From NCBI RefSeq assembly GCF_025698545.1, contig NC_068569.1, positions 12,586,001 through 12,650,000 on the forward strand: a stretch of DNA of 64,000 bases, read 5' to 3'. Position numbers and translations under genes: made by a program. This document shows, piece by piece, positions 11,459 to 45,900 of the stretch. The notes below the pieces were generated by a model. It worked only from the letters and a program-made list of their open reading frames with translations. It ran no database searches and had not been told where the DNA came from. How positions within the stretch are numbered: position 1 is the first letter of the stretch; every line of letters starts with the position of its first letter. This DNA is from Gossypium raimondii. Taxonomy: Eukaryota; Streptophyta; Magnoliopsida; Malvales; Malvaceae.

Positions 11459-14200
11459 TGTAACGACCCAAAATCCGTGGGCACCGAAAAAGTGTGTGTA
11501 TTATCGGGCCTCTGTCTTAGTGAATTGAGTTCAAAAATAATTATTAGAAGTATTTACGAGACTAGTTGTGTGATTAATTAGGTATTAATTAAGTGAATTT
11601 AGTCTAATTAAGAATAATTAGGAAAAAGGATTAAATTGCAATAGAAGTGAAAGTTTAATTATAGATTAAAAGAAAATAATAGGGACTAAAATGGCAATTA
11701 AGCCATTTACATCAAAAGAGGCGTCATATATGCATTAAATCCAAGATTTTGTTTAAGTTATATTTATATATGTGTATAATTATTATAATTATTATTATAA
11801 TTATTCATTCAAATGGTAATTTATATTTATTATATTATTTTACTATGAAATAAATTAAAATTAAGACAAATGTATGGCGAAAAGATGGTACAAGTGTAAT
11901 AATATATATATATATATATACACTTGTATTATAATTATTATTTACTTAAAATTTAAGTAAAAGATATTAATTAATTAAATAATTATATTATGAGATTTTT
12001 GTTTGATAAACAAAATAAATAAAGACAAGTGTATGATGATGATTTAATACAAGTGTATTAATAAAATACATATATTTGTAATACTTATAATTAATTAATT
12101 AAACATAAAGTAAAATAAAACAAAGCAAAAGAAAAGAAAAGAAAGAAACAGAATAGAAGGAGACGAAACAGAGAAGAAACAGGGAGAAAGAAAGAAAGAA
12201 AAGAAAAAAGAAAGAAAGGAAAATTTTGGGTTTAAGGCTTTAAAGCTTTAAAGGTAAGTTTAATCAAGTCCTTTCCTTTTAAATTTGATATTTTGGAATC
12301 CTAGAGTGAAATACTCTTGGATTTAAGTTGAAATTTTGAAAGTTGATAGATTTTTTTTGAGTAGGGTTTATGTTGAATAAATGATGGAATTGAGGGTTTA
12401 TTTGATAGAAATTTTAATTGGAATTGAATAAAGGATTGAATTGTAAACTAAACTATAAGTTTTGAATTTTAGGATTAAATTGAAATAAATTCGAAATTAT
12501 GAAAATATGATAAAAATTAGATAGTTAAATGTGAGTTTGATAGGAAATTAAGTAGTAAAAAGGTATGAATTGAGAAAGAAAAATATATAGGTTTAGTTAG
12601 GATTAAATTAGAATTAAAGTAAAAGTTAGATAAAAATTTCAGCAGTTAAATTATATTGTATTAATGATTATGAAAATTATCTTAATTTTTTTCGTAGCTA
12701 ATATCGCACCCGAGGCATCCACGAAGAAAGGAAAAGAAAAAGTGGACGAGGAATAGACACGAGAACCACGGTTTGTATCACTATAATTCAAACTTTATTA
12801 TTATTAAGTGTTTAATTTGCTAATTATGTGTAGTAAGTATTTTAAGCTAAGTGTTTAATAAATGATAAATTTATAATGTGATAATGAAATTGAAACTGAT
12901 ACTGAACTGAATTATGGAATACTGGATATTGTTTTGAGTACTGAGTGAATTGTGAAAATACTGAATATTGTATGTATAATGCATTGAATTGTGAAATTAC
13001 TGAAATAATGAATTACTGCAATACTGTGAAACTGACTGAAATAAGGAATTTATAATTGATACTGAACTGAGAAGGAAAATTGTACTGAAAAGTGAATTAA
13101 ATACCCTATTAACTAGTCGGGCTAGTCGGATATAGTTGGCATGCCATAGGATATGGAAGAGAACGGTGTATTTGCCGCTTCTCGATCGAGCACTTATGTG
13201 CCGACTCATATCTTATTACGATTCGGCACTTTGTGTGTCGAATCATTCTTATTACCAATTCGCACTTGGTGTGGCGAATCTTTATTACATTCTTGATTCA
13301 CGCTCTTGGTGTGTTTGGTTGAATCCATGTATCCGCCAAGTCGAGTCAAGTTAATAGGATAAATGAAATAAATTTACTGATAAAACTAATCTCGAATGAT
13401 ATAGTATATGTGAAAAGTGAAATTTGAAATAAAGAAATAAGAATGATATTTATATATATATATAATTAATTGATAATATAAAAATATTGAATTGTTTATT
13501 AGTAGTGACAATTGTAATAAAAAGTATGTGTGTGATTTAATGTATTTAATTATAAATTGAATTATAGTGATAACACTGAGTATATGCATACTCAGCGTAC
13601 GGTTGTTTCCGTGCGCAGGTTGTAGAAGTCAAGTACTGAACCAGCATCCAAAGCCAGACCCGACTTCAGCAAACTTTTGGTGATGTATATTTTCTTTTGG
13701 TAATGTGGCATGTACATAGGATGTGTATAAAGGTTATTATGTTTTAATATAAATGGTTAAAAAATGTTAGTATTATAAGTTTATGCATTAAAATGAAAGA
13801 AGTTTAATTATTTTTATTTAATTTAGTATATTGTTAAATTTAAATTGATATTATGTTGATTAAGTTGATTAGAAGGTATTTGGAATAGAAATTGAGAATG
13901 TGAAATGAATTGGTTGAATTGGTTGTGATTGGAAATGATATGGTTTTTAATTGCAGGGGGTTTTATGTGAAAATAAGCAAAAATGCTACCGAAATTTGGT
14001 AAAAAAAATTTAGAGTACTTGAACGAGTTTCATTTCACTTTTAATTCACGTTTTGGATTTCAAAAGTTCATTACAGGGACTTAGTTATACAATTATATTA
14101 CAGATGTTATTTTATTATGAATTATCCGTAAATTGTTTGATATGTCTGGTAATGCCTCGTAACCCTGTTCCGGTGACGGTTTGGGGTTAGGGGGTTTACA
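11459..14200 (+). mobile_element. Solo-LTR-like element in the SKP2-like intron
   Basis: The 2742-bp element begins TGTAACGACCC and ends GGTTTACA, so it has TG...CA ends with a short inverted match. It is flanked by GTATT and ATATT, a 5-bp target duplication matching at four positions. No coding domain was seen. Parts in order: an A/G-rich tract at about 12115-12230; four tandem hairpin units at 13170-13325; and a double stem-loop at 13576-13616. A Ty3/Gypsy origin is inference. The ends look whole and the near-identical target duplication suggests moderate age. Confidence 0.75.
13170..13325 (+). repeat. Tandem array of four ~36-40 bp hairpin units
   Basis: The core CACTT(T/G)GTGTG recurs at 13191 (as CACTTATGTG), 13227, 13263 and 13303 (as CTCTTGGTGTG). 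In the later three units it is flanked by inverted arms, GATTCG...CGAATC or ATTCGC...GCGAAT in two of them, so each unit can fold. Confidence 0.8.
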
Positions 14201-14569
14201 ATATTGTTCATATCTGCAATGCGTAGTCAGTTGCAGCTTTAACGCATCCACAGAGATTCAATATTTTTAGTTTTCGACAAAATTTAGTCAAATATTCAAG
14301 ACCTTCATCACTGAATGATGTGCAGCCACTAATGTTAAGTTTTGCAAGATTACGACAACTATGGGCCAAAGCATACAATGAGCGATCACCAAGCTTGAAA
14401 CTTTTGCTGAGGTCCAGATCCTGCAGATCATGACAGAATTTCGCAATCGTCTCAACAGCAGTGTCCTAAAGCTGCGGATTTTCTTGGCCTAGTACGAGAG
14501 TTAGCAATTTGGTAAATTTAGGAGCAAGGGATAAAACCAAGTTGTTCATGTTCTTCCAGCACCTGCAGC

Positions 14570-16702
14570 AAGATACCACACAACCCAATTTTAGCGAGGA
14601 AGTAAACTACCACAAATACATCTAAATGCAGCCAAGCATAATATGAAAAAGTTTCCAACCAATAAGGTAGATATAAGATATTTCAACATCTCCACATCAA
14701 ACAAGCTTTAACCATTACTACTAAGATTAAATGTCATGCAAGTTAATAAGCATCAGAGGGGGCACAAAAATACTACCATAACCACCAATATACATTGATA
14801 AATATATTTAAGAATTGATAAACCCGACTAGGAGAGTGTTTTTAAGTCATGCATTATTTTATCCTACCTATCAGAAACTAACGTACTAGGTGCTACAAAT
14901 TTGGAGAACACTGAATACATCTTCCTAAATCAACCAAATACTTTCTTCAAGATTCATAAAAGGGAATAATGGCAAATATATTATTTGTAAACTATTATCA
15001 TTTATGAAGGTTCAAAAATCAAAAGCATAGCCAAATGAATGGTACTTCAACAAAAAAATCATGCAAGTTTGCTGGATAATTATAGTTAAAACAGAAAGTG
15101 ACGCGGACAATTGTAAAGGCAATAATCAAGGGCTAACTGAAAATGAAACTTTATGAGGTTAACCCAGACATCTCAAGATGGGTAGGAAATGCAGATTCAA
15201 TCAAAGGGAATTACATCTTAAAGAAAAAGAAGATGAAGCTTCACTAGTCATAATTTCAAACAAAAAAAAACGCAAAAACTAAATTAAATCGGCAAAACAC
15301 GATCTTAATCTTAGACATAAATTATGCAACAAATCGTCGAAAACATTGAAGAGCTAGGCAGGTCACGTTTGCATCTAAAAATATCCAACTCTAAGAGCTC
15401 AAATAATTGAAATCAATGAGCCGACCAAGAAAGGTCAATGAATAAAGAAGATGAGGAAAAAAGCAAAAGAAACATTTAAAGCGATAAAAATCATGAGCCA
15501 AAACAATCAATGAAATGAAATGAATTTTCAAAAAAAAAAAGATCAAGCAGTTTCGTAAATTCATAAATAGGATACAAAAAGGTTTTACAAATTTAGGTTA
15601 GACTGTAGCGTTTCCAGCAGAACTGGGGAGCACAGGTTTTACAAATTGGGGAGCATAAAAAACAGCTATGTATTTAAACAAACCAATGTACCTTCTCCTG
15701 GGTATCTTTTAAGCTTTTAAGCACTGGAGGGTTGCCTCAAAGCAGTAGCAGCTATCCTGAATGAGAAATCAAATTTCTGTTCTTTTCAGCCAAAAGCACG
15801 TTTGTGGGAGAAGACAGTTCCAAAGAACCAGCAGATGAGGGGAAAGAAAGTTTGTGGGAGAAGACGACAAGTTAATTTGGTCAATTTTCAGCCAAAAGCA
15901 CTTTAAGCTGAAGAAAATGAGAAATTTTTAGCTTTTCATCTGGAGAGAAGTCTTTTTCTGATGGTGAAATTTTCTGAAGAAAAGGAGGCTGTTCTTCATT
16001 CCTTTTAAGGGAAAAAGACATTTTCAGCCAAAAGTCCTTCTAAAACATGCAGAAGAGCAGGGCCTTAATATAACTGCTTTTTTCAGAACTAAACGGTTGC
16101 TAAAAGAAAAGTGACCATATTTGTCAAAGTTTAAATAAAGAGGGAATAAAAATATAGATTATATTTAAATATGAATTTAAATGATTGAATCCTATGAGAT
16201 GATGTGATGGTTAATAGTATTCATCGTCCTAGGTGTAGCCTAGATTTGAGTCATGCTAATTACGTTAGTTGTTCGAGCTTTATTATGTTATTGTAATATA
16301 TTTAAAGATTATTAATAATATTATTTCATTTTGAACTTGATTTAATTTATAATGCCTCTAGAAATAACAAGCGCATGCAAATTACCAAGCTATATTGTTG
16401 GATTATAAATATATTTAATTTTTTAATATTTCTACTTATTAAAAGTTAAAAAAAAAAAGACAACAACATCATTTCAATGCAACATTGAAAGAGATGAAAG
16501 TAGTATTCACCATTGACTTCAAGCAAAGTGCCAAAAATGGAGATGATATTCTTAAAAGATTACTAGTAAAGAAAGGGAAACTTACGTGCTCTAAATGTGA
16601 ACTTCAGACCAGTTAACTAATGCCCATTTTCACGGTAAAAAAAAGAAACCACTTCCAATACTGAAAACATCAGCAGAAAGTTGCCTCTTTATGTGCATCT
16701 AT
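14570..16702. other. Gene-free region with MITE-like repeat
   Basis: No F-box exon or other gene was recognised. At 15784-16070 the phrase TTTTCAGCCAAAAG occurs three times (about 15785, 15887, 16020), TTTGTGGGAGAAGAC twice (about 15801 and 15851), and the right edge reads AGCAGGGCC. Read on the minus strand, GGCCCTGCT...GGACTTTTGGCTGAAAA resembles a hAT-type MITE end. The left edge is unclear. Confidence 0.4.
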
Positions 16703-18677
16703 TGTAACATCTTCGAAAATTCATTGGTCTTAATAGTATTATTTTCAGTAATTATGAATCCAACTTTTCGAAATAAATTAAATGTGATTTGTAAGTATTA
16801 GTGGAGAAGGTAGTAGGAGAACATAAAAATTCAAAAGATTATGTATTAAAAATGTTAATTCAAGTATAGACTAAATTGTAAGGTTTTACAAAGTGAGAAC
16901 TTTAAATTATAAAAAATTAAATTGAATTAGTGGTGAAATGTGTGATTTTTACCAAAATTAAGTGGATTAGGATGATGAATATATTTATATTATTAAGTTA
17001 TAATGTTTTATTTATAATGTATTAAGTTTTTATTAAAATAAATATATAGCATGATGGAAAAGATGTAGGGATTTCTTCATCTTTCTTTTCATCCTCTTAC
17101 TCATGTCACCCACCATTGTTGGACAGAAAATCTTTTTCCTTCCAATTTGGTCCTTATCATCAACAAATACCCCTCCAAGCCAAAAACTATTAAACTTTAC
17201 AACTTAGCAAGCTTAGTGTTAATGTTTGAAGAGATAGAAAATCTAGATAATATGACAAACTAAGACTTTAAGGTAAGGTTTTCATGATTTAGTAGTAGTA
17301 TTATATTTATTATAATTATTTCAACACGAAAATGTTATGAAATAAGTATATTGATTTCTCATGTTTTACGGAATTACCGTGAAATGAAGAGAAAGATAAG
17401 AAAGAAGATGGAAGGAGTGTAGGCAAGAGGAAACAAGTAAATAAAGTTTGAAGAAAACATAACCTAGTACTTTAGACATCTTTCTTACCTAATTAGATTT
17501 TTGAAAACAATAAATTAATGAACATGTTAATGTCATGAATTTAAGTCATTGTAACTTAATTCAAGAAACTAGTAAATGATTGTAGTTATTGTTGATGTAA
17601 TTAAATGTGTAGAAAAAGGACTAAATTAAGAAATATTGAAAAGTTATGCGTGATTATGAAATTATGAAACTTGATTGTGCTTGTGATGAATATTGATTTT
17701 ATATTAATGTTAAAGCTATTGTAAACAAGTTTTGAACTTGTGGGATATAGATGACATGTCATTGGAAATTCTATAGCGGGCTCGTGTATTTAGCACTTTG
17801 ATACTTGTGTTTAAACACTTTTAGTGTTCGTGATAATCTAACACTTGCATGCTCATCTACTTCTAAATGATGAAAGTATGGTAAGTGAAATTGTGTTAAT
17901 TATCTTTAGTTTAATTCTTGTAATCATGTTAAATATGTTTATTCATTAAATTAGCTAATTAAATTAATTGTAAGATTTGAATTTCTAAGTAAGCTTTCAT
18001 AAGCTTAACGCGTTGTTTTGGACGCGTAGGTAAAGATCGTTTTGAAGACACCTTTTGAAGTGGTCATCCTTATCTCATCATCAAGCAAAGTTTGAAGTGT
18101 ACATAGGATTAGAACCATTGAAATATTTGTAGTAAATTATTAGGTAAGTGGTTTCAAAACTATGTTATGCATGTTTAACGTTATTTTGTACCTTGGGATG
18201 ATCTTTATTGGGTGGATATTTACATGTGTTATATGTGATGTTTAAATGATATTTTGATATATTTAAATTTTTAAAAAAGTTTAGAAATGTTGTGGAGTGA
18301 TTGAAGATAGTTTTGACTTAGTTTTAGGTGTTCAAGTCATGTTGTGGCCGACATTTAATATTTGGTGTTGCAACGTTGGACTATGTTGCGACATCACGAG
18401 TCAGTGTCGCAGCATTGGAATATTCTACCCTCAGTGTCGCGACACTCATTTTTCAATATTACGTCATTGACTTTGTTTTGACCCAAAAACCCCCCAAATA
18501 GTTCTCATTTGTAACCAAACTCTAAAGGAAGAATAGAAATGATTTGAAAAACTTCAAATAATCTTAAATATATTAAAATAAAGTGTTTAAATAAATATTC
18601 AAATTAAACGATTGTGGTGTTTAAATATAATATTTCTTACTCGAAATACAGGCTGAATCCGGATAAAGGATATTACA
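16703..18677 (+). mobile_element. Solo-LTR-like element, probable
   Basis: The 1975-bp element starts TGTAACATC and ends ATATTACA, flanked by TCTAT and TGTAT (four of five match). Inside it has short hairpins at 17775-17860 (for example AACACT-TTT-AGTGTT at 17814-17828), a stem-loop TAAGCTT-TCAT-AAGCTTA at 17990-18007 followed by a second at 18008-18027, and TGTCGCGACA-type palindromes at 18340-18450. No coding domain was seen. The right boundary is less certain than those of the other elements. Confidence 0.6.
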
Positions 18678-19768
18678 TGTATAGTACGATATATATAGGT
18701 TTTTGTGCTCCTGTTTTCCATAGAGTACACAGTCTCGCATTAAGATAGTGCTAAAAATATTAATAAACAAATTGGGTTGGACAATGATCGTTGGTTGTCT
18801 CCGATTGTCGAATTCAATAAAAATCACTATTCAAGAATATGTCATCTCCACCTCAACCTTGATTAATCATATCTACAAAGTTTGTATAAGTTGGCCCATA
18901 AAAGCAAGCAATAGTAGTAAAATAAAATGATTTGGTTTATGTGGTTAAGGTTATAGTTTGACCAATAAAAGGTGACACTTTCGATTTTTAGAAGTAGGCT
19001 TTTGGATAAAATGACATTTTAATTTCTTATGAAACTTTTAACTGTAATGTCAAACTCCTATATGGGATAAATTTGGCGCAGATTATTAGACGCCCATAAA
19101 AAAAGTAATATATTAGTTGCCAAGCTCATTTCTTTGCATGACCAAAAGATATTTCCTGCTCGTCTCCCCTCGCCTTGTTTTGGTACAGGGTGCAGGCCAT
19201 ACAGTTTTTCCTTATAAGAAGGCTAAACAACAAGAGAACCCGGACAAGAACAGCAGAAACAATGCAGATCAAGCGATAGAAACAACTGAAACAGGCTATT
19301 CAGTAATTTACTAATGCAAAAAATACAGAAAAAACCTTGAATCCATTTTCGACCCCAAAAATATAGATTTAAAATGCCAGTTATTATTTCAGCTTACAAA
19401 TCGAACATGGGATAACAATGTAAGTTTTTATGGGATTAACGCGTACAACAGAACAGTAATGCAGTGAGTGATAACAGGTCTCCCACTCCCTTTTCTTTTT
19501 TCTATGATGTTACTTGTTAAATACATCACGGGAAAAAATTTTATGGACTTTGTTTAGAGATTTAAAAAACGTTAATGGACGGTTTTATGTGAAAAACCCC
19601 TTGTGGTGGCTCACACAATGTAATTAACCTCGATTTCTCATTTCATTTTTTGTCGTAAGCGTGGCTGCGAGCAGTATAAGTAATCTCCTTACTTCATGTT
19701 TAAGGTCACACACAACTGCAAGCAATTGCAACAAAGTGAAAAAAAAGTTGAGAAATATTCTAAATTCA
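18678..19768. other. Intergenic; possible serine carboxypeptidase-like exon remnant
   Basis: At 19189-19315 a plausible acceptor (GGTACAG) is followed by a frame starting GAGHTVFPYKKAKQQ. GAGHT followed by a Pro-Tyr-Lys run recalls the catalytic-His segment of serine carboxypeptidase-like proteins, but the rest of the frame does not fit the family. No other gene was seen. Confidence 0.25.
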
Positions 19769-20179
19769 ATGGCAGAGAAGGAGGGAGGGATTGTGAAGGA
19801 AGGGCATGATGAGGGAATGAATATGGCTATTGGTCTTCTGGAAGAGTTTGGGCTCCCATTGGGACTTCTCCCTCTTGCAGATGTGATTGAAGTTGGTTTC
19901 GTAAGGAATACAGGTTACATGTGGATTGTGCAGAAAAAGAAGGTTGAACACAAATTTCAGATGATCAGCAAACTGGTCAGTTATGACACTGAAATTACCG
20001 GTTTTGTTGACAAGAAGCGGATCAAGAAGCTGAAGGGAGTTAAGGCTAGAGAACTCATGTTATGGCCTCCAGTAAATGAGATTGTAGTGGACGATCCACC
20101 CACTGGAAAAATTCACTTCAAGAGCCTCGCTGGTGTAACCAAGACCTTTCCCGTTGACGCATTCGCTGCCGGGCAGTAA
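19769..20179 (+). CDS. DUF538 family protein
   Basis: This single-exon gene gives 136 aa from the first ATG (19769, MAEKEGGIVKEGHDEGMNMA). The frame is open further upstream but has no ATG there. Family hallmarks are visible in order: AIGLLEEFGLPLGLLPLADV (about 26-45), VGFVRNTGYMWIVQKKKVEH (about 48-67), VSYDTEITGFVDKKRIKKL (about 76-94), GVKARELMLWPPVNEIVVDD (about 96-115) and GKIHFKSLAGVTKTFP. DUF538 proteins (for example Arabidopsis SVB) are small plant-specific proteins of the beta-barrel, BPI-like fold linked to trichome growth and stress. Their biochemical role is unsettled. No signal peptide was seen in this form. The gene looks intact. Confidence 0.93.
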   Translation: MAEKEGGIVKEGHDEGMNMAIGLLEEFGLPLGLLPLADVIEVGFVRNTGYMWIVQKKKVEHKFQMISKLVSYDTEITGFVDKKRIKKLKGVKARELMLWPPVNEIVVDDPPTGKIHFKSLAGVTKTFPVDAFAAGQ

Positions 20180-20189
20180 AAATAGGCAC

Positions 20190-21870
20190 CGTCTTGTTCT
20201 TTGGGAGCCACCAGAGTCCAGAAGCTATGGGGGTTTTTTGTGCTGCTTTATGTTCTACTTGTATGCAATTTGTGTTGATACGGATTAATGATGCATTAAT
20301 CATGCCAATATTCAACCAAACAAATATATATACAAATGTAAATAAAACCAAGTGACTTCATTATTCAGTGCAGTGGTCACTTCAAATCCAATTTCAACAA
20401 CAACGGTGATGACATCCTTTGTCCTCTGATTATCAGATGTTGCCGTCAGAAACAAAAGCAGCATTAATAAAAAATAAAATAACCATTAATTCCAACAGGC
20501 AAGCATTTGTTAATCTCCTAGTATAAAGGAACAGTAGTAGGGCTACTCCATTCACATATGACACACATCTAACGGGCTTTTGTGCGATTGAAAAGCAGAA
20601 AAGGAATAACTCAAGCTGCACAATTGCATTCCATCAGCCCATTGAAGTTTCTCCTTCTTGAACTGGTTCAAGGCCTTCACGGATATGGTGGAACACTGGG
20701 TCAGCTGCTTAACCTCGCCAAGGTAGATTTTATTAGATTTCTTTTTTTCTCGTTACTGGTACAAGGCCTCCGGCCCAACATTAGAGGTTTAAATTGGATC
20801 TCTGAACATAAATTTTTTGATAATTTATCAACCCAACCATTGGTTAATTAGTAGAGGAGATTTTCTCCTCCCTTATTAAAGAAAAAAATAACATAATTTG
20901 AATTAGTATTTAATATGAGTATTACAGAATTGATAATTCGAAAATGTAATTAAAATTTTTAAAATTCAGGACAAATATAATATCTCAACCATAGTTTAAC
21001 GATGTTTAGTGAGATTAACCTTTATTTTAATTTATATTACTATTTAATAAGATTAATATAATTTTAAATAATAAAATGACTTGAGCAATTTTGTAATAAT
21101 ACTATGACGTCAAGTTGGTTTTTTGTCAGGTTTTATTAATTTTATATAAAAATATAAAAACAAAATAATATCGTAATAATATAATTTACGATTTTAATTA
21201 TTTCTCTGAGTAAATTTAAATTTTATTGATGAGTGACATTTAAATGATAATATAAATTATTATACTCATATTTTACAAAATAACTAACAATTGTGATCAT
21301 TCTTTTATATTTTTACTGGAGACTTTTAATTTATACTTACAAATCAATATTTGGGTGTGTTTGTAAAGTATTTAAAAATTATATTTAGATGTAATTGTTT
21401 GTAATTACATATATATCTCATGAATGAGTAATTATTGAATTAAGTGTAATTGGAACACCTCAATTATTTGCTCCAATTTCAATAGGAGCTGATAATTTGG
21501 GGAATTAGATGGATAATCAATAAAGATGGATTTTTATTTATTTTTACTGGATTGTTGGTTATGGGTGATTAGAGATTAAGCCCCAGCCACATCTTCTTTC
21601 AAAACAAAATATACCTCGCAGTAACTAATATTATTTGAGCGAATTCAATATACATAAGTAGAGATGGCAAGGATGCAGGAGAAGGAGATCAACCTTCATC
21701 AGATGTACTTCTAAAATCCGATTCCAAATTAAATGTTTTTTTTTTGTTTTAATGAAAAATTAAAGTTATACTTAATTCTAATCGAGATCTGATTCAATAT
21801 GTTATAACCTTTATTTTTATTTACTTTTATCTAATAAAACAATAAAATTTAATGTTTTTATTATTATTTA
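20190..21870. other. 3' flank of DUF538 gene and AT-rich intergenic DNA
   Basis: Probable 3' UTR extends to about 20350. A frame at 20582-20851 (+) has no family match. From 20880 to 21480 the sequence is low-complexity A/T. No gene was recognised. Confidence 0.4.
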
Positions 21871-25346: not shown

Positions 25347-28246
25347 TGTAACACCCCTTACCCGAGACAGTTGCCGGAGTCAAGCACGAGGCATTACCTA
25401 ACTTACTAGTTCGGAGCATAAAAATTTGCTTTTAAAAAATTTAATTCACTCACGTTCATTCAATATGTCCCTAAAAAGAAATCTCGAGACCCTAAATCAT
25501 GCAATAGAAACAGTTCGAGTCCAAACCGGGAACATTAATAATTTTTCAAATACTAAAACAAATTAAAACAATTCATTTCATTATTCACAATAAAACTGTC
25601 CACCTGCGCAATAGTCACTAATTTAATTATAACTCGAGTTACAAAACTAGAAATTTAGATCCGTAAATTTTCCCTGAAACTAGACTCATATATCTTCTTA
25701 CCATAAAATTTTCAGAATTTTTGGTTTAGCCAATTAGTCCAGTTTATTCTTTAAAGTCTCCCCTGTTTCACTATTCGACATCTCTGACCCCTCTTCACTA
25801 AAAATTAATCATCTCAATGAACATAATTCGAATAATATTCTCGTTTGTTTCTATTGAAAATAGACTCACTAATGAATCTAAAAATATAAATTATAACTCC
25901 AAATTATTTTTGTACAATTCTTAATGATTTTCTAAAGTCAGAACAGAGAATTTCAAAAGCTATTCTGATCCTATCTCACTAAAATTCAAATATCTAAAAA
26001 TATACAACTCTTTTGCTTACTCTATTTCTTTTATGTGAAAATAGACTCATTCAGCTTTAATTTAATATCTCATTCAGCTTCTAATTCAACTTCTACCATT
26101 TTTGGTGATTTTTCAAATTCATGTCAATGCTGCTGTCCAAAAACTGTTCCATTGCAAATTCTTACTCTTTTATCATTTCTTTGTATTAACTATCATTTAA
26201 ACACACACAACACCAAAACACGTTCCTACATAGCCATTTCAATAACTAATCATTATCGAATATTTACTTGCTACTCCTTAGACATATCATAAGGATACAC
26301 ACAAAATGACCAAGTCCCTATACATGCCATATAAATCAAAAAGTTGTTTAACAAAATCTACCGGAGTAAATCTGGATGGTGTGGTTGTTGATGTAGATCC
26401 GATCCTCCAAACATATATATATATCAATCTACAAGAAACAATAATCACACACAAGTAAGCTTACAGAAAGCTTAGTAAGTTCATAGGCTCATAATAAAAT
26501 CTTACCAAAATTTCACTAACAATATTAATAAACAATAAAAATTCAACATTTCCTGCCAACCACAATCTCAAACAGTGAATCTATCCAATCGAGCTCAATA
26601 TCAGATGTCAACTTATATTCCGACATTTAGCTTCATTTGCACTTACAAATACCTGCCAAATTAAGGATCGTCTTACGGATTTAAGTACATTGTTTGCCCG
26701 GTGCTATGATTTGCTTGAATATTTCACATTGTTATAACTCAGTATGGTTTTCTTCACTGAAACACCATACTTAATTTTCATAACTCAGTATGGTTTTCTT
26801 TATCGAAATACCATACCTACTTTTCACAACTCAATATGGTTTTCTTCACTGAAATACCATACCTACGTTTCACACTTTGCCATGGATCCACCATGGACTT
26901 ATTCGTAAATTCATCACTGGTTATCGAACGTATGTACTCAATCCTACGTATCCCTTAATTTGAACTAACAATCTCATTTTATTCTTATTTTTACCATAAT
27001 CATAATTCAACAAAAATATACGAATTGATACATTATATCAATCCCACATTAACAATTAATCATAAAAGTTCAACCATATGAACTTACTTGGGCCAATTTG
27101 TAGAAGTTGTAAAAGTTTAGAGACTAATTTGATACTTTCTCTTTTCCACGTTTATCTTGGATTCGATCTATAATATAAAATTTTCCATTTATTAGCATCT
27201 AATTCAATACTAATTCACTTCACAATTTATGCCCTTCAATTTTCGAAATTATAGTTTTACCCTAAAATTTACAATTTAGTCCCTACTCAATTAACACTTT
27301 AATTGATCTAATTTTCTCAATTTACACCTTGTCCAACCATTTTAGACTACTATATTACCTTTGATATTCAAAACCACAACACCAAACCCTAATTCTAAAC
27401 TTTTTTACAATTAAGTCCCTAAAATCAATTTCTATCAAAATTACTTAATAAGATCATCATATAATAAAATTAAAGCTTTAATTCCATATTCATTCATCAT
27501 AAAAATCCAGCACTCATCAATGGTAACTTTAAAAATCAGCCATGAAATCAATAACTAATGAAATAATTAGTTGGACCTAATTGTAAAAGTGTCAAAATCA
27601 CAAAAATTACAAGAAATAATCAAGAATTAAACTTACATGGTTCAAATATATGAAAAATCAGCTTGGACGGACTCTTCAATGGCGTTTTTGGCTGAGAAAT
27701 ATGAAGAATTGCCTAGAAACTCTTTTAATTAAGATTTTTATTTGTTAACTTTTACAAAATTTCCAATTTTACCCTTATTACATCACTTTTACAGATTTTT
27801 CTTTTCTTATGCCGTCTCAACTATCCTTTATTGGCATATTTATGCCTTAAGTCCCTCCTTATATATCACTTAAGCTATTTAATCACAATTTAACAAATTT
27901 TGCACTATTTTCAATTTAGTTTTTTTAATTAATTGACTATCCAAACGTTAAAATTTTCTAACGAAACTTTTATACTAACTCAATGACGCTCCATAAATAT
28001 TTATAAAAAGATTTATGGCTCGGTTTATGAACTCGAGGTCTCGATACCTCATTTTAGACCCAATTTACCTATTAAATTCTTTTTAAATCACAAAATTCAA
28101 TAAATCACAAAATTCACTAATTCAAAAATTCTTCTAAATTCATACTTGACCCATAATTATTAGTTTATTAAATTTTAAGACTCATTGGTCGGATTTAGTG
28201 ATCTCGAATCACTGTTTCCGATACCACTGAAAATTAGGTTGTTACA
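25347..28246 (-). mobile_element. Solo-LTR-like element with perfect target duplication
   Basis: The 2900-bp element begins TGTAACACCCCTTACCCG, ends GGTTGTTACA and is flanked on both sides by AAAAG. No coding domain was seen. Minus orientation is chosen from the internal landmarks it shares with the other elements: a three-unit 46-bp array at 26734-26871, then a stem-loop at 26456-26474. The ends are whole and the target duplication is perfect, so it is fairly young or well preserved. Confidence 0.85.
26734..26871 (-). repeat. Three 46-bp tandem hairpin units
   Basis: Units start at GTATGG (26742), GTATGG (26788) and ATATGG (26834). Each has the form (G/A)TATGGT-TTTCTT...GAAA-(C/T)ACCATAC, so every unit can fold on itself. 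Confidence 0.9.
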
Positions 28247-32513: not shown

Positions 32514-32595
32514 TGTTAGGGAGGAGTAAATTTCAGGAATGCTACAGTGAAAGAATGTGAGCTGTGAGGGATGCCAATCCTAAGATTGTATGTAG

Positions 32596-32603
32596 TTTAT
32601 ATA
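32596..32603 (-). promoter_or_regulatory. Probable TATA box of the intact protease
   Basis: TATATAAA reads on the minus strand about 83-90 bases upstream of the start codon at 32513. Spacing and sequence suit a plant core promoter. Confidence 0.6.
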
Positions 32604-32609
32604 GAGAGG

Positions 32610-34386: not shown

Positions 34387-36621
34387 TGTAACACCCCAAA
34401 AATTTGAGTGTTGTTTGTTGAATTTTATCTATAATTAAATTTTTGTATTTGTGGTTAAGTATCCTACTTGTGTGTTAGAGGGTAAGGGTTCAAACTTTAT
34501 TTTTGGAACTTTTGTTATTTTGTTTACTTGACTTCTATCATTGATCTTTTGACTTAAGTTAAATTTTGTGTCAAGAATGAGCTTGTTGGTTCAATATTTT
34601 TTAGTTGTATTTGAGTCTCTGCGTAAACGAAAAGGGAACGTAATTATTTTTCTTTTGCTCTACAAAGGAAGTTAGTTATTTTAAATTATTAAAGTTCTTT
34701 CCTCTTCCTTCTTTGATTCTTTTTCTTTCTTTCTACGTTCTTCTTTTCTTTTTCTTTTGTTTTTTTTTTCATTTTCCTTTCTTCACTATAATTTTGTCTT
34801 TTACTCGTCTTTGGGACTTGCTATGGGTTTAGTCAGGAAGTTGTGTTTTTCGTTGTTCAATTGCAAGATTTTTACTATAAGTGCTGCTGTTGATTCCTTC
34901 GTTTTTGCTAAAATTTGTCTATTCTCTTTTTGGTTGAATAATACTATCAGTTGTATCAAATTCTCTGTTAATTGTTTAATTGGGCTTATTTAGGCGAGAA
35001 TCTTGAGAGTAGCATTCCTCCAACATTGTAGTGCTGATTAAACGTTGTTCGTTCGTCGGTAAGAGCATAACCTTCATTTCAGAGCTTTCGCGTTGAAGTT
35101 TTCAACATAGTTCGATTTGACTGTAATCTAGATTTTTGACTCGATTAATCTCTTTGAATTGGACAATTGGTTGTCATTCCTAGGTTACAGGGTCATATCT
35201 AATGCTTCTACATCAAACCCATACCAGGTGTGTAACGAAAACCTGATTTTCTACAAAGTTTGAATGCCAGAAAACATGGGTCGACGCCACACGGTCGTGT
35301 GCCAGGCCGTATGGTAGGTTGTGTGTGTCACACGGCCGTGTGTCAAACCGTGTAACTCACTATTTGTGAATTAATGTCATACGGCAGGGACACAAACGTG
35401 TGTCTAGGCTATGTAACTCACTGTTTGTAAATTAGTGTCACACGGGCCATAGACATGGGCGTGTGTCCAAGATGTGTGAGTGATAATTTGAGATTGGAGT
35501 CACACGGGCGCGCGCTTGGCCGTGTATTAGACCGTCTAACTCACTATTTTGAGACACACAGCTGTGTGTTAGGTCGTGTGTGACATTAAGAGGGCCAATG
35601 GGTGTGTGCCAGGCCGTGTGGACTACACGGGCCAAACACCCAAGCTGTGTGAATCCACATGGGCGTGTGGGCCAAAATATTGAAATTTCCCTTAGGGTCG
35701 TAAGCGTCGTTCGAATCGAACGTAGGCCTTCCGTAAGGTCCGTATGATCTGAATTAGACCATATAACTTGATATCCAATATTTTGAGGCTGAATAATCAA
35801 TTATCTGTACGTATAATTAATGCGATAACTGTTAAATGATAATAATCTGTATTATCTAATTATGAATTGTATTTGGATAACTGTATGTACATTCTTGATA
35901 TTTGATATCTGTAATATGCATTTGTATTGGGTGGGAATGGTGTAAAGAAAGAAGTGCCGATAGTTTAATGATCTATCGAATTGAGTGGCTAAGTCACAAA
36001 TCTGTATCTGATTTTGGCGATTTATCATGTACTGATCTAACAGCTAGTCTGTAATCACTCCGAAATGTGTCACACCGACACTAATTGGTGTGTAGGGCTA
36101 GATGAGTACTTGATACCCTATCTGGTGTGTTGGGATGGTCAGAGATGGTGTGTAGTGGATAGGGGTAGGAAACTGCGTCTGATTCTGATCTGTTCTGCAT
36201 CTTATCTGACCTATTACAATAATACTAAGTATCATCTGTTTATGATTCTGTATCTAAATTTGGGAAATTACTTTTATATTTATATTGTTTTATTGCCTTT
36301 ACATCTGTTACACACATTGAGTTATAAACTCATTCTATTTGTTACTGAATTGCAGGTAACCCATAGACTTAGGAGGCTCGATGTGTCAGGAGCTCTGTCA
36401 TCTCTCTTTTCTAGATATTTTATTATTTGTTTAAAATTGAACTAATGTATGTTTTATTTCGGACTATAGTTTGTAAGCTCGGATTTCCGTGTTGGTTTAA
36501 TTGGTTAAATGGTTTCTGTATGACGAATTTTAAAATACTTAAAAGGTTAGTTTTCCCTTAAACGTTTTAATGTAGCCTTCAGACTTGGTCTTAACGTCTA
36601 GGCTGGGTATAGGGTTTTACA
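34387..36621 (+). mobile_element. Solo-LTR-like element with ACACGGCCGTGTG array
   Basis: The 2235-bp element begins TGTAACACCCC and ends GGGTTTTACA, flanked by ACAAT and ACAGT (four of five match). Parts: a T/C-rich tract at about 34690-34800, a palindrome array at 35276-35665, and a stem-loop TGAGTT-ATA-AACTCA at 36318-36332. No coding domain was seen. This LTR type resembles repeats I associate with cotton; Gypsy membership is inference. Confidence 0.75.
35276..35665 (+). repeat. Degenerate array of ACACGGCCGTGTG palindromes
   Basis: About a dozen occurrences of variants of CACACGG-(C/T)CGTGTG and GGCCGTGTG, spaced 25-50 bp, many joined by the phrases GTGTGCCAGGCC and TAACTCACT. The best copy reads CACACGGCCGTGTG near 35330. 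Each is self-complementary. The patch is markedly GC-richer than its surroundings. Confidence 0.85.
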
Positions 36622-36954
36622 ACAGTAGCTTCCAATCCAACTCCTTTTTGCCACAATATTTTCTAATGCGATTACACCTTTTGTCGTCTCACTTCGAAAG
36701 CAATGCTGACGTCTCAACGGTAAAAGCAAGGGCCCCAAAAAACTAGGGGAAAAGAGACAACAAAAAAATGGAAATAAATAGCAAATGGTAAAGACAAAGG
36801 TGGTCAATGGAAGAGAGAACAGGGGAATTCCATATCTTCCAAGTAAAACCAATAAATTAAAGTTTTATTTTGATATTTTTATACATTTTAATTTTACTAT
36901 GTATATTTTATTATATACATCAATTTTATATATATACTATTATTTAAATCCCTG

Positions 36955-37180
36955 GTTGAGTTGGTGTCACGAGTCAACCGGACACCAATTCGATTAGAAA
37001 AATTATGAAAATATCCTTTTGTAATTAAAATAAATTATATTATATGAGGGTACTTTAGTATTTTATTTTAACAAAAATCAATAAAAACACAAGTGTGGTG
37101 GGATTTGAACCAACACCGTTAAATTGGTAAAATATTAAAATTACCACTCAACCAAAATTTTAATTTATTATATTATATAC
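36955..37180 (-). repeat. tRNA-like dispersed repeat (SINE- or MITE-like), copy 1
   Basis: Read on the minus strand it contains TTGGTTGAGTGGTAA (like a pol III A box of Leu/Ser tRNA) and, about 35 bases on, GGTTCAAATCCC (like a B box), followed by an A/T-rich body and the inverted pair TTGGTGTC...GACACCAA. A second copy lies at 46435-46640. No full tRNA cloverleaf can be drawn. Confidence 0.55.
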
Positions 37181-38705
37181 ATTTTTTAATATGCACAATT
37201 TATTATCTCTACCATTTGTATATATTAATAATGAAGTTAACTGAGTTAGTGTCATAAGTCAATTGGACACTAACTCACAATTGATGATAACATCATGATA
37301 AACAATTGTAGTGCATTTAGTATTGTTAATATTGTAACACCCCTTACCCGTATTTGACGCCGGAATAGGGTACGAGGCATTACCAGAACACATACACTTG
37401 TAAATGTATTAAACCGAGACATGAAACTTCATCCAAATTAAAACTTTTCAAATTTTTATCTTTGAGTCCCTAAATAGGGCCTACGAGGCCCAATACATAC
37501 TCATTCAACCAAGTCATGCAAGCTTGTACATCCACAAAATACAACATCATAAACATATAACTTAACTAATATTAGCCAACCTCAATGGCCTTATACAAAA
37601 TGAACTATCAAATATTATAGGCCAACATTTTAGGCTAACTCATAATAACATCTACACACATAATCAAATCCCTATACATGCCATAGACTTAAAAATACTT
37701 GAAGATCGTTGATACAATACCAATCAATAACTTGTTAATGTGATAGAATCTCCAACGACCTCCAACTCGAGCTAGCATCTATGACACTATAGGAAAAAAG
37801 AAAGGAAGGGGGTAAGCATTAAAGCTTAGTAAATAGGTACGTAAATAATAAGTGATTTATTAACATGCTTTTGTTAATCTTCACAATATGTTCTCAAGAT
37901 AATACAATCATAATTGCACATAGTTCCACACTATTTATTCATGTTCATCTCAAGCTATCTACTCAAGTCACAATCACTCAATTATTTATATCTTGAGCTA
38001 TGAAACTCAAAATTAAGATCCGCTAATTTTACCTTAAACTAGACTTACATATATTCTTACCATAAAATTTTCAGAATTTTTGGTTTAGCCAATAAGTACA
38101 TTTTATTCTTTAAAGTCATCCCTATTCTGTTGTCTGTCAGTTTCGATCCTTCTTCACTAAAAATGAATTATCTCCTCATACAGGATTCGAATGATGTTCT
38201 CGTTTGTTTCTTTTAAAAATAGGATTTTAAACATATAAATTCTAACCCATAATTATTTTTGTACAATTTTTAATGATTTCCCAAGTCAAAACAGGGGATT
38301 TCGAAATCATTCTGACATTGTCTCACTAAAATTCAAATATCTCATAATATGAATTTCTTTTGCTTACACCGTTTCTTTAATATGAAAATAGACTCAATAA
38401 AATTTTATTTCATATCTTATTCAACTTCTAATTCGATTTCCACCATTTGTTTTGATTTTTCAAATTCACACAACCGCTGCTATCCAAAACTATTTTATTT
38501 CTAAATTTCACTCTTTCATGTTTTCTTTATAGTAACTTTCATTGTAATACTTACTCCGTATCAATCTTACCAAAGTTCGATCATATATCGAGTACATTGC
38601 TCATAAGTTTACACACATATACCTGCACTTATTCATCACATGTCATATTCGTTTACACTTAGTCATTTCCCGTTGAACATATCAGAATAATAACGGATAT
38701 CCGGT

Positions 38706-38835
38706 GGCCTGCACATAGTACCACTTTTGTAGTCAAAGCTACCTTCTTCACAAAGTGGCGCTCACATAGTACCACACTTGTGACCAAAGCTATCTCTTCT
38801 CAAAGTGGCCTTCACATAGTACCACACTTGAGTCA
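38706..38835 (-). repeat. Three ~50-bp tandem units in the outer element
   Basis: CACATAGTACCAC recurs at 38712, 38763 and 38813. Two units hold the inverted pair CCAC(T/A)..TTG...CAAAGTGG and so can fold. The third is partial. Confidence 0.88.
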
Positions 38836-39346
38836 CTAGTGACATGTCACTTGTATCCTATTCTATTCCTAATGTTCAACCGAAAAATTTCTCACTTTTC
38901 AATACTTGTCTATTTCATTCAATATACAACCACATTTCATAAAACATAATAAAATATGATAACGTAACGATGCATTATTTACATGCAAACTTACCTCGGT
39001 AGCACAATCGATGAAAAGGACTTATTTGTCATATTCTTTGTTTTTCCCCCGTTCTAAATTCGAATCTCGTTTTTCCTTGATTATTGAGCTTGGAAGCTTG
39101 AAAACCCTAACCATGGCTTCCCCCTTGCTACATTCAGCCAAGCAGGAAGATGGACAAGGGTTTTTAGCTTTTATTTTGTCTTTTAATCCATTTAATTACC
39201 AATGTACCAAAATGCCCTTTTTACTCTTCTTTAAAATTTTACCCTTTCATGTCCATTTTTGTCCATTATGACATAAAATGGTCTAATTACTATATAAGGA
39301 CCTCTAATTTAAAAACTCATTCCAATCAAGTACCTTTATGAACTAG

Positions 39347-41717
39347 TGTAACACCTCTAACCCGTATCCGTTGTCGGATTGGGATTACGATGCATTATCA
39401 AATAAGATACAACTTTCAAATAATTCCGAATGCATATATGTCATATTTGCATAAATAAAACTAATGGCTAATTAAAATTTAACATACATTATTAATCATA
39501 AAAAAACATACATTTCACTTGCATATAATCATAGTTATATTTAAACAAACATGTCACAAAGCCATACAAAGAAAATGTACATTAAAAATATTAAGCAAGA
39601 ATTATGTATTATCTCATCAATTCAATAAAAATCCCTGAGTAATTAAAATCCTTATGCACAGTTATTCACATCAATTTATACCCATACCTTGCCGGTTACC
39701 ATGTACTCAATTCGACTAACCTATTTAAGTATATAAAGTTAGGTCTAAAACATGCATCTTCCAATTAATTAACATTACCTAAATTTATCAAGTACATTAC
39801 TTACTAACCTTAAGCTCATTTAAAAGACAAATATACATCATTATATAAGACCAAAACATGCTTATTTACCTATTTCAAGCTTGCGCATGAACTCCTAATG
39901 AGCCATTTCCAAATAACCATATTTCAATATCATTACCAAGCTAAGTAATACATGTTCAGTCATTATAACACATTACCCATAACATATTTATACTTTATTG
40001 ACATTCATCAATTCACATGCTTATCAATATAAATATGAGCACCAAAATCGAATCATATAATCACTTATATTTTCAAATCAAACATATTTTAAATGCACCA
40101 CATGAATATACACTATTTCTAAATACCTAATTATTACATAGCATAATAATTAAAATTCAACTAACATCCATATTAATCTTATTGCCGAAACTCATAATTA
40201 AATATCACCTTAATATTCAACTCATGTCTCAAGATTTTAATACCTAGCTTAAACCAAAAATGTCATATACGTGTAACTTCATTCGATTGCAAGCTCAATT
40301 CATGCTCCAATATAATCAAATTCAAACATAAAAATTAGACACATCAAACATCCATTCAAAATCACATAAACTCAACTTAAACAAAATGATCATGGACAAC
40401 TCATTTTTAAACCAAACTGAACCTGTATAACCAAGATACACCCAAATATATTATCAATACAACCCGAATCAAATTAACTATAACCAAGATACACCCAAAT
40501 ATATTATTAATACAACCCGAATCAAATTAACTTACACTTCCAAAATTATAATTATTCAACTCAATTAATTACCAAATCCATACATTCCACACATATTATA
40601 TATATATATCAACTCATTCACCACATTATCAACAAAACATAGCTATCGTATACTACATATAAATAAGCCACAACCGAAATTATAAAATCAATCACTTGAT
40701 CAAGAACCCATAAAACAAAAACCGAAACAAATACTAATGATCAAGGACAAGCCATTTTTCGCATGGCTATATATATATACAAGTCCCAAAATCAATTATT
40801 TCATCTAGACTATATATGCCATAAGCTCAAAATTCAACTTAGTAAAATACCGAAGAAAACAGTTGATAGTGTGATAGGCTTGCTGGCGATCCTCGAGCAC
40901 GTAACAACCTCTAGAAAGAAAAATCTATAAAACAAAGACAAGTAAAAACACAAAGTAAGCTAACTTAGCTTAGTAAGTCATTAGCAAAACACATATATAT
41001 GTTTAAATCATTTAATTCCTTAGGTAAATTTTTATTAAAACCGAATATGCATTATACAATATCACCAAAAAGTTCATTAATCTCAAGACATTTTAGTCAT
41101 AACTAATTAACATTATATACTTCCAAACTTATACTTATCATTAGCATAAGGTCGAAGATACTTACCTTATACATATGCACGCATAAGTATCTTTTTGTTA
41201 TAAATAATCGACCAATGTTCATACCTAATCATCAAATAGATATGACATATCACATACCTAATTATTATAACTTCGCAATCCCATTTGATATCACATTGAC
41301 ATAGATCTTACTAAGCACATATCTTGAAATGATACACCGGCACGAAGCCTGCTAGGCACAAGCTCGATTCAATTACCGCATGAAGCCTGCTAGACATAAA
41401 GTTTAAAATATTTCACCGGCATTAAGCTTGCTAGGCACAGAGCTTGAATATCTCAAATACGAAGTTGATATTTCACATAATTCTTTATAAGAAATTTCTA
41501 AATGTTCTTTAAGATTTGTATAAAGCTTCTCAAATATTGTATCTCAGCAAAAATCAAATTCATACACAAATATTCATAGCAAACGTACATTCGACTAACA
41601 GATATATAATTCATATAATTACATTCAACTTATGAAACTCAACACATATATTCGGCTAAATATATATGATTTATACAATTTGTTTCAATTTATAGAACTC
41701 AAAACATACATTGACTA

Positions 41718-41764
<47 letters not shown>

Positions 41765-42945
41765 TCATACATTTTATTTTAACTTATAGAATTTCACATA
41801 TATACATAATCGGCTAACATTTATATACAACTCATACCATTATATTTTTGCTTATAGAACATATATATATACTCATTTAATGATGTGTATTTGCTAATAG
41901 ACTTACCTCGGATGGTGAAAATCGGAATAGAGCGGTTAATCGATGATTTTGGTTTTTCTTTGATCCAGCTTCGATTTATTTTATTCTTGATCTAAATATA
42001 TTCAAAATAAATTAGTTTAAATATTATTTCATTCAATTTGGTCCAAAAACACATAAATGGAAAAATTACCATTTTGCCCCTGGTATTTTACACTTTTGCA
42101 ATTTAGTCCCTAATTCATAAAACACAAAATATACAAAATTTACACACACTATGCTAGGGCTGATTGTTCCTTGTATTTATACAAGTCCACACATTTCATT
42201 TATTTCATATTTTAACCCCTCAAAATATTATTTTTGCAATTTAACCCTATTTACTCAATTTCATCAAAAATTCCAATACAAAACATATTAATCTAAAACA
42301 TATATTTCATTATTCATCATCAAACATCACATAACACAAATTTTCATTAATGGCACAAATCAAAATATTCATTAAAATCAAAAATTCAAACATGGGTTGG
42401 ATAGTATTCGAAGCAACGATCTCAAAAACGTAAAAATTATCAAAAACCGAAGCAATTTCATACTTTAATCAAGCTAGTAAAGTGCCGAACCCTAATAAGC
42501 CTTAATGGTTTCTTCTTTGTTGATTTCGGCTAAGGAAGATGATGAAATGACCATTTTTTTTATGTTTTAATTTAACATATATTATTTATTTGTTGTTTTA
42601 CTTCTTTAACATTTATTAATTAATTTAATAAACATATAATATAAGGGTAATGTTGGCTATTGCCACCCACTATCTTAGTTTTGGTCTTATTGCACCTTTA
42701 AATCTCTCATTTTAAAAGACAACAACAATTAGGTGCTTTTAGATCTGACCCCTAAATTTTTATTTTACGCAATTAAGTCATTTTATTTAATCGGTCATTC
42801 AAACGATAAAATTTAAACACAAAAATTTCACACAATCAAATTCACACATAATAAACACATAAAATAATATTAAAATATTTTTTTGACTCGAATTTATGGT
42901 CCCGAAACCACTATGTCCGATTAGGGTCGAAATCGGGCTATTACA
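39347..42945 (-). mobile_element. Inner solo-LTR-like element nested in the outer one
   Basis: The 3599-bp element starts TGTAACACCTCTAACCCG and ends CGGGCTATTACA, with a perfect ACTAG duplication on each side. Parts in minus orientation: a tandem array at 41309-41450, then a stem-loop TAAGCTA-ACT-TAGCTTA at 40956-40972. A TA microsatellite lies at 41723-41760. No coding domain was seen. It must be younger than the outer element. Confidence 0.9.
41309..41450 (-). repeat. ~40-bp tandem units in the inner element
   Basis: The phrase (G/T)AAGC(C/T)TGCTAG recurs at about 41344, 41382 and 41423, with a weaker copy near 41310. CACCGG precedes two of them. GCC-TGCTA-GGC and AAGCT...AGCTT pairs let units fold. 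Confidence 0.75.
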
Positions 42946-45900
42946 ACTAGAACACACATTTTTATCTATTTCAATTTAGTCCTAAATATTAATTCGAATA
43001 CCCAAACAATAAAATTTCGTAACAAAAATTCCACACAGTCGTTCAATCACACAATAAACATTAAAACTTAATCGGAATAAATTTTTCTTACTACGAATTT
43101 GTGGTTTCAAAATTGTTGTTCCGATTAGGCCCTAAATCGGGCTGCTACAAATATGATGTATTTATGAGTTTAAATTTCGTTTTACTTACAATTTAATCTA
43201 ATTTTTTATTTTAATATCGTATGTATTTAATGTATTATTATGATTAATAAGTTTCAAACCATACGTTTCATTATTTATTAGATGTTACTTTTAAACATAC
43301 ATCGTGTTCTAAATCTATGGTGTTCACATGTATATGCATGTGATAGGATTTCTATATTAATAATGTTGTTAATTGAGTTGGTGTCACAAGTTAACTTGAA
43401 CTAACTCACGATTGATGACAACATTATGATAAGCAATTATAGTGTATTTAGTATTGGTAATTTGATATATTTATGTGTTTAAATTTTATTTTACTCATAA
43501 TTTAATCTAACTTTTTAATTTTAATATCGTACATATTTCTTGTGTTATTATAATTAATAAGATTCAAACAACACATTTTATTATTTATTGGATGTTATTT
43601 TAAATACACATCTATATTCTAAGTTTATGATTTCTACTTATATATACATGTGTGATAAGATTTTTAACATTTTTGAATCAAGTTAAATAAGGGATATCAA
43701 ACCCAATATTAAAGCAACAAATGACATATATTATTATTAACACATAAGTCTCTAAACGTATATATATCCGTTAGCAAGAGGAGACCGAAATATACTGCTG
43801 GGAAGCTGGAAGGAAGAAGGGACGGAGATCATCTTGGGTAATGCGTGGGTTCAGATAGGCTGGTCGATGAAGATATGGACGGGGTATAACATACTTTTAA
43901 AGAACGTGCTGGTGGCGGCGGCATTGCTGAATCATATAATAGGAATGCATGGCGGGCTGTCTCAAGAAGCGATACGATGTCGTATTGCCTTTTCTTTTTT
44001 ATTTTGGTCATCTCCAGCTTAAAACGGTCCCTAATGTCCACCTTAAAATTTAAGTTTACAAATACTATACCTAACTTTTGAAATGTATGAATTATATTTA
44101 GTTGACATTGGAAAACTTTTAAAAGTAGTCTCATTCAGCACGTGCATAAATCCCTCTATATTCTTACACTAATAAAGTAATACTTTTTTCTTCCTTGATG
44201 GTGGGTATTAGAAATTTAATTCTCAAACAAAAAGAACCAAATTAAGACGTAAATCATGGAGATGGAGGAGGTGTCGTTTGGGTGCTCTGATAGCTACTTC
44301 AAGTCATGATAATTAAGACACCGACAAAAGGTATAATCACACCTATTTCTGCCTCTGCAACATGGTCGTTAAGCTACCCCCTTCTTAATGGCCCTGCATA
44401 AACACGACAGGTCTGATCCAAAACCCTTTTTTGGGAACCATTTGCTTCGTCAATCTTTATTTTATTTTAGCTCAGCAGCTTCGTCAAACCTGTTAACCAG
44501 TATTATAATAAATCTTGAGCTGTTTATAATTTTATATTCAGATAGGAAAGCCTTCATGATCCAATTTATTTTTAAGCTTATCAATGACTATATTTTCATA
44601 TGAAAAGATAAAACAGAAGAAAAGCAAAGTTGCTATATGTACAGTAGTTGTTTTTCAGCAAACTTTAACCATCAAGTATCAACAGCCATGAGTTTTGCAG
44701 TACTAGACTTTTTTAAGAGGTAAAGGGAGCCGTGGGGTTAAGATTTTTGTCTTTAATTACTTTTTGCATCGATCCTAGTTCCTTTTATCGACCACAATGG
44801 ATGTAAATTGTGTGCAGAAATATATATATAAATTGTCTGCAGTTTATTCTGTTCAATTGCATGATGTAAGAAACTTGAATAAAAAGCAGACAGCTGCTTT
44901 GTCATTATACTTTTTTTTCTCAGAGTATCTATTAAAGAACGAATTCTTCAAAGAAGATTACACATCATAAGGCACCAAAATCAGACCAAATGTTATGTAC
45001 CACAAATTAAGACTAAACGTATAACAGCAAACCAAGTCCACCAAGCCATAATCAAAAGCTGCAACCAAATCCTGTAAGAGAAGATAAGCTCATCTTGTTC
45101 AAGATGTTCCATGCCATAAAATTTAGTGGATCCACATCCACCTCTCCTAATTAGAATTCAAGTCACAAGCACTGATGCTAATTCCTTATAACCAAATACG
45201 AAACCAAAGCCACTCAAGCCAAAGGCCTTCTTCAACCATCCAACTTCCATGTTTAACTTCTTTTTAAAGTTTTGTTTTTCATAATAACTATATTTTGTAT
45301 AATATGCACTAGATGAAAATTTTGAAAATCTAGAAGAATTCCAGACTGGGATTTGAATTCCAAGTGCCTGCAATTAAAAACTACAAATTACAAACAAGCC
45401 TCCTGCACCATTCTTATCTTTGCATTAATTATTCTGATTAACTTAAGTCATATAATTATTTTCAAATTTGGCATTTCATGGTTACATCATTTCAAACGCA
45501 TCACGTCAACTAGAAGTTGCTTGATTTATGTTTTCACGTATAATTAAATGATCAATTCTTCACCAATATTCACGCATTTACATTATTAACCTATTTATGC
45601 CATCAATATTGCTTGAGGAAGGAGATCTCCTTCAAGAGTTAGATGACCAATGCAGTTTTAGGGTTAATATTAAGTACCAAGAAGGAAACTCGTGACCCAC
45701 TTCAACAGTTTGATGACTTCCCATACCCTCAAAGAAGAACCTTAAATTTCCAAGCAAAGTATGTTGTTTTGCTTTTGTTATTTTTAATTTAATAAATAAT
45801 AAATTTATGGAATTATCTTTCATTTTTTAATGGAGAAATTAGTTGTTCAGACTTCGCCTTCTAACTTATTTGTTGTCTTTTGGCTCTACTTAACAATACA

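Follow-up and report, generated by a model that had tools for sequence, protein, structure and literature searches.

A 64,000-nucleotide window of the Gossypium raimondii genome (contig NC_068569.1, 12,586,001 to 12,650,000) holds, between positions 11459 and 43149, six elements resembling solo long terminal repeats (LTRs), here called el1 to el6, each with a short hairpin in its downstream part. We propose that a spliceosomal (U2-type) intron of ~0.66-1.4 kb lies wholly inside these Ty3/gypsy-type LTRs, with the hairpin as its branch-site region, and that this would be a leader intron whose hairpin slows splicing; we give this reading a probability of roughly 0.65. Support is good for the putative intron anatomy; that splicing takes place, the leader position and the braking role are inferences. 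The layout suggests an intron 3' end because the hairpin keeps a fixed distance from a conserved YAG downstream of it, with a GTAAG-type donor upstream in most families. The first-pass annotation had considered a termination, packaging or dimerisation signal, and this context points to an intron 3' end instead.

The hairpins were found at 13576..13595 (el1, +), 17990..18007 (el2, +), 26456..26474 (el3, -), 36318..36332 (el4, +), 37813..37828 (el5, -) and 40956..40972 (el6, -), so that all six stems quoted in that annotation are present where it had placed them. Read in the sense direction, every one of them carries a branch-point-like CTTA or CTCA (CTNA) in the 3' arm (CTCA in el1), followed by a YAG, the distance from the A of CTNA to the A of AG being 21-30 nt; the 5' arm often carries a second TACTAA-like copy. 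Copies of each family were aligned with the window copy included (8 rows for el1, 30 each for el2 and el3, 21 each for el4, el5 and el6), and the AG holds its column in 8/8, 28/30, 29/30, 17/21, 20/21 and 16/21 rows of el1 to el6, respectively. In the other four el4 rows and five el6 rows the AG lies one column away (one column earlier in el6). The second stems that had been reported for el1 (13595..13616, +, TTGTTT loop) and el2 (18008..18027, +, TTGTTTT loop) are likewise present; both close over the tract before the AG and end at the AG, and the pattern of the el1 stem gave 285 matches genome-wide and none for the reversed control. A reading of TATAG before exon 2 as a TATA box was rejected, since the families with TGTAG, GCAG or CGTAG have no TATA and keep the YAG.

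The same arrangement recurs outside the window. The genome searched comprised 751 Mb in 281 contigs, and the hairpin pattern TTACTNAGN{6,16}CTNACTT gave 4955 matches against 1214 for its reversed control, meaning that about a quarter of the matches are expected by chance. An independent set was taken, blind to the downstream sequence, as the first 20 distinct strings in order with a Watson-Crick pair at p5, from 100 listed places, one string already in the el3 set being left out. Each of these 20 C1 hairpins has a YAG downstream, at 23-33 nt from the A of CTNA, and a pyrimidine fraction of 0.65-0.94 in the intervening tract; in one of them (L206) the best-scoring AG lies at 17 nt and a second AG at 27. 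Acceptor scores in this set exceed those of the antisense side (p=2e-7), where 11 of 20 loci have no AG in range, and also those of eight pattern matches with a non-Watson-Crick p5 (p=0.011); of these eight, two lack an AG in range and L232 resembles a decayed member. Upstream, a strong GTAAGT donor occurs within 1200 nt in four of six independent loci.

Within the window, a GTAAG-type donor is conserved in its context in el1, el2, el3, el6 and part of el5, and not clearly in el4; it lies 0.6-1.4 kb upstream of the hairpin in most families. Among sense GTs the proposed donors of el1 to el6 rank 1, 1, 2, 7, 1 and 2 by assumed weights. The proposed el1 intron spans 12254..13618 (+; donor rank 1/168 GTs, acceptor rank 2/161 AGs). 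The donor alignments, here and in the other families, omit rows on which BLAST failed; of nine el1 rows seven remained, and six of these keep the GTAAGT, five of them shifted by one column. Two introns with an exon near 12698-12772 may be an alternative arrangement. For el2 the candidate intron covers 17273..18029 (+; donor 1/118, acceptor 1/92; 17 of 31 rows aligned, 13 with the donor GT). On the minus strand lie those of el3 (26429..27087, 659 nt; donor 2/190, acceptor 5/188; 28 of 31 rows aligned, 26 with GT), el5 (37787..38994, 1208 nt; donor 1/139, acceptor 8/131; 9 of 21 rows aligned, 5 with the donor kept) and el6 (40925..41906, 982 nt; donor 2/250, acceptor 5/152; 17 of 21 rows aligned, 15 with GT). 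The el4 candidate, 35059..36355 (+), combines an acceptor of rank 1/96 with an uncertain donor. Besides, el6 holds a second strong AAG|GTAAGT at 41165 (-), ~190 nt before the hairpin, a possible alternative donor. Base composition changes at the proposed donors: T content rises from exon to intron, from 0.16-0.30 to 0.35-0.49, in all nine loci compared, and purines fall in seven of them, the comparison comprising five window elements and four new loci with a strong donor (el4, L219 and L222, with no clear donor, were left out).

The spacing of a downstream motif bears on a different explanation of this block. CACACTA follows the AG by 38-46 nt in 19 of the 20 independent loci (L199-L218) and by ~51 nt in the window copy of el6 (40865-40873, -). 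Such a tight spacing is more than splicing alone needs and is not accounted for by the intron model. It would agree with a polyadenylation or R-region signal, in which a U/UG-rich far-upstream element and a stem-loop precede a cleavage site near CACACTA, and the T-rich TTGTTT/TTGTAG tract fits this too. However, the YAG is kept even where the tract is not T-rich (GCGCAG in el1, TTGCAG in el4, CGTAG in el2), and a 3'-end signal leaves both the upstream GTAAG-type donor and the jump in T content without explanation, so that we regard it as unlikely. A stretch of the TGTATAGGG/TGTACATAGGAT type, alike by eye, was seen downstream of the exon 2 start in el1 (13711-13722, +), el2 (18097-18109, +), el3 (26310-26329, -) and el5 (37670-37683, -), and is a possible promoter or 3'-end signal.

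The first-pass annotation had also claimed that the two arms of the stem change together with pairing kept, and the arm-swap tests agree, with the reservation that all of these statistics ignore the relatedness of copies. In a wide sample (100 listed genomic places, which yielded 52 distinct matches with 29 different combinations of inner arms), Watson-Crick pairs make up 52 of 87 compared with 37.1 after swapping, and 7 of 20000 swaps reach the observed value; for the inner two pairs alone, 95 of 20000 swaps were as good. The inner pairs switch type jointly, between CTT/AAG, CAT/ATG, CTA/TAG and TAT/ATA. The six elements themselves, with the window copy of el5 and with el2 represented by L019, gave 149 of 20000 arm swaps that pair equally well, in a test that relied on hand-aligned arms and only four distinct 5' arms. 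Variants of the test gave 36/20000 with nine rows, 183/20000 with seven distinct rows and 4/720 when el5 was represented by the copy L104, which is better paired than the window copy. These results support selection for pairing in the hairpin, and hence, as far as the swap tests go, a conserved pairing over the putative branch site.

Stems of this size are by themselves ordinary in these LTRs, and it is the position of the hairpin that is not. Perfect stems of at least 6 (loop 2-7) number 17 in el1, 14 in el3, 10 in el4 and 12 in el6, the four elements counted, with means of 8.6, 7.2, 4.0 and 10.6 in 20 Markov resamples per element, so the earlier notion of a single stem per element does not hold. 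Similar stems are also common in L190-L198, and L191, from another LTR family, shows repeated stem-loops of the GATAAGTG type ~620-900 nt before the LTR end. Four of the six elements (el2, el3, el5 and el6) have one common core, TAAGC/GCTTA, and outer pairs differ only in el1 and el4 (TGAGT/ACTCA), with changes from A-T to G-C and from C-G to T-A. The stems might thus be chance products of AT-rich LTRs, their core being an inherited branch-point-like sequence (TACTAAG, GCTTAC) and not a selected structure. The abundance of stems and the common core favour this, as does the self-complementarity of AAGCTT, through which two direct copies pair automatically, and the hairpin is moreover not favoured by its natural flanks. 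On the other hand, the joint switching of the inner pairs in the wide sample and the outer-pair switches in el1 and el4 speak against it, and we consider this explanation unlikely.

Several results weigh against the proposed intron with its braking hairpin. Folding predictions at 25 C with the natural flanks give the hairpin a P of at least 0.5 in 14 of 26 loci and below 0.2 in nine, the latter because of competing folds, and often make it weaker than with shuffled flanks. In comparisons with its surroundings inside each family, it is distinctly better conserved in el4 and el6 alone: of the 161 windows compared, those as conserved as the hairpin number 6 in el4 and 4 in el6, and 34, 32, 97 and 57 in el1, el2, el3 and el5. 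The tract between hairpin and AG is clearly pyrimidine-rich only in el5 (0.95) and el6 (0.80), the fractions in the others being 0.65 (el3 and el4), 0.60 (el1) and 0.55 (el2). Among sense AGs the acceptors of el1, el2 and el4 rank 2, 1 and 1, but those of el3, el5 and el6 only 5, 8 and 5, and the splice-site weight matrix behind these ranks uses assumed and not measured values. The el4 donor is weak (rank 7/195) and aligned in only 6 of 21 rows. Among the independent loci, L222 has no strong donor within 1200 nt, that of L219 lies only 26 nt before the hairpin, and in L221 an antisense site (10.2) scores nearly as high as the donor (11.2). Plausible TATA boxes occur, but their conservation is not evident (0.69 matched in el3). 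Probes across the exon 1-exon 2 junctions of el6, el3 and el5 gave no match covering both sides by at least 20 bases among 120 listed (40 per element, drawn from first-look candidates numbering 65, 469 and 103, respectively). This absence of spliced copies counts in favour of the proposal, as it fits spliced RNA that is not used as a template, but it fits no splicing at all equally. One el6 match, C1:42306380, extends 11 bases past the junction and was rejected as a spliced copy, its sequence being unspliced.

Where transcription starts decides whether the intron would lie in the leader. In el3, compared in 40-nt bins, identity is 0.89-0.97 before TATATAAGG and 0.67-0.89 after it, for ~560 nt, a profile that would suit a promoter followed by a freer leader and is suggestive only. 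With assumed TATA positions, exon 1 has a lower density of ATG than the intron in 3/3 elements, but exon 2 is as dense in ATG as the intron in el5 and el6; there is no clear leader-cleaning pattern. If transcription instead began near CACACTA, then donor, hairpin and acceptor would all lie in U3 and be transcribed only from the 3' LTR, as an intron of the 3' untranslated region. Typical LTRs have a long U3, which favours such a start, and the five 15-mers that are best conserved in el2, an old family, begin 12 to 109 nt downstream of where the hairpin begins. Selection should, however, act against an intron that takes U3 out of the template, whereas both splice sites have been retained, and the el3 profile, for what it suggests, also runs against this placement, which we judge decidedly unlikely.

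Under the leader-intron scheme, transcription would start in the 5' LTR, at a point upstream of the donor, and the hairpin would enclose the branch site, with CTNA in its 3' arm and the YAG acceptor 21-33 nt further on. A paired branch site would slow the binding of the U2 small nuclear ribonucleoprotein, and the RNA would be divided into an unspliced fraction, serving as the genome for copying, and a spliced fraction, serving as mRNA. The slowing is expected because, in the parts of the Arabidopsis study that were available, single-stranded branch sites go with splicing, and less reactive, paired ones are associated with unspliced events (PMC7784297). Those introns belong to host genes, and a dedicated conserved hairpin is not described in the same parts of that source (PMC7784297). 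The hairpin could alternatively serve packaging or dimerisation: several stems are nearly self-complementary palindromes, their pairing is kept, and a signal inside an intron would tag unspliced RNA only. Such a function needs neither a set position before a YAG nor CTNA in the 3' arm, and the loops vary between hairpins in length and in letters, which makes it very unlikely as the explanation, but it may exist in addition to the intron role. A search of positions 11000-43500 against Rfam gave no matches at gathering scores.

A broader proposal, which we advance tentatively and hold to be somewhat less probable than not, is that these LTRs represent a large plant Ty3/gypsy superfamily, with thousands of copies, that has its own leader intron and a co-evolving branch-site hairpin acting as a splicing brake. 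Only unspliced RNA would then be reverse-transcribed, since splicing removes an intronic signal, and spliced LTR copies would not be found because only the unspliced RNA is copied.

The assignment of the elements themselves relies on their ends and on comparisons with related copies. The description as solo-LTR-like holds for five of the six, in which 5-bp target duplications were recognised, and not for el2, whose ends were not found in the search for LTR ends and target duplications. Exact duplications flank el3 (25347..28246, -; AAAAG), el5 (37333..43149, -; AATAT) and el6 (39347..42945, -; ACTAG), and four of five bases agree at el1 (11459..14200, +; TG...CA; GTATT/ATATT) and el4 (34387..36621, +; ACAAT/ACAGT). 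The el6 element is nested in el5 in the same orientation, splitting it. On the minus strand, the U5 ends of el3, el5 and el6 match that of el1 (TCCGR-N10-GGGTNAGRGGKKTTACA), which rules out the earlier plus-strand reading of these three; the form common to the four occurs 3512 times genome-wide, and its reversed control not at all. By eye, the minus strand on either side of el1 (11200-11440 and 14200-14560) seems to belong to a host gene resembling one for a leucine-rich repeat (LRR) protein, with el1 apparently inside one of its introns and oriented against it. One element of the el3 family, the family covered by the domain search (one element), encodes an SH3_Tf2-1 integrase-type C-terminal domain (E 1.2e-16) directly upstream of its 3' LTR. 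Ty3/gypsy elements of the chromovirus type carry, after the 5' LTR, a primer binding site (PBS) complementary to initiator tRNA-Met, and one copy, L065, has TTGGTATTAGAGC, which may correspond to such a site. The elements appear to be Ty3/gypsy-type LTRs, the chromovirus-type domain being present in that one el3-family element; the lineage name Tekay serves as a lead only.

Introns and splice sites are associated with other LTR elements in different arrangements. In HTLV-1 and foamy virus the splice donor lies in the R region, and thus inside the LTR as proposed here, but the acceptors lie in internal genes and are not known from the same LTR. The intron of Ogre is located in the coding part, between protease and reverse transcriptase, unlike the candidate introns described here, which are non-coding and inside the LTR. 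As far as the available sections of a 2025 review go, introns are generally absent from plant LTR retrotransposons, Ogre and EVD being among the exceptions, and the functional intron of Ogre gives rise to a subgenomic RNA by alternative splicing (PMC12786077). The same sections describe how, in the Ty1/copia elements EVD and BARE1, splicing divides the RNA into a genome and a short GAG messenger; there, part of the coding region is removed, and neither an LTR intron nor a branch-site hairpin is described in those sections (PMC12786077). Transcripts of the ta-TRIM solo LTRs of the tapeworm Echinococcus begin in the solo LTR and are spliced, but to acceptors outside the LTR, according to the portion of the report consulted (PMC4558846). 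Cer1 of C. elegans also produces spliced and unspliced RNAs, the unspliced one needing export; its spliced RNA encodes a protein, and an LTR intron is not named in the available parts of these sources (PMC10309623, PMC12786077). Sunflower elements have spliced isoforms in their coding parts, in the extracts at hand (PMC7730604), and PMC3059260 gave no match for splicing terms. No intron inside a plant LTR is named in the titles and abstract openings among the matches listed, a set with the subscription literature mostly outside it, and this is weak evidence that such an intron is unpublished.

If the proposed intron is real, each of thousands of solo LTRs would be a portable donor-acceptor pair that could alter host transcripts, and the division of the element RNA between genome and messenger would become directly testable.

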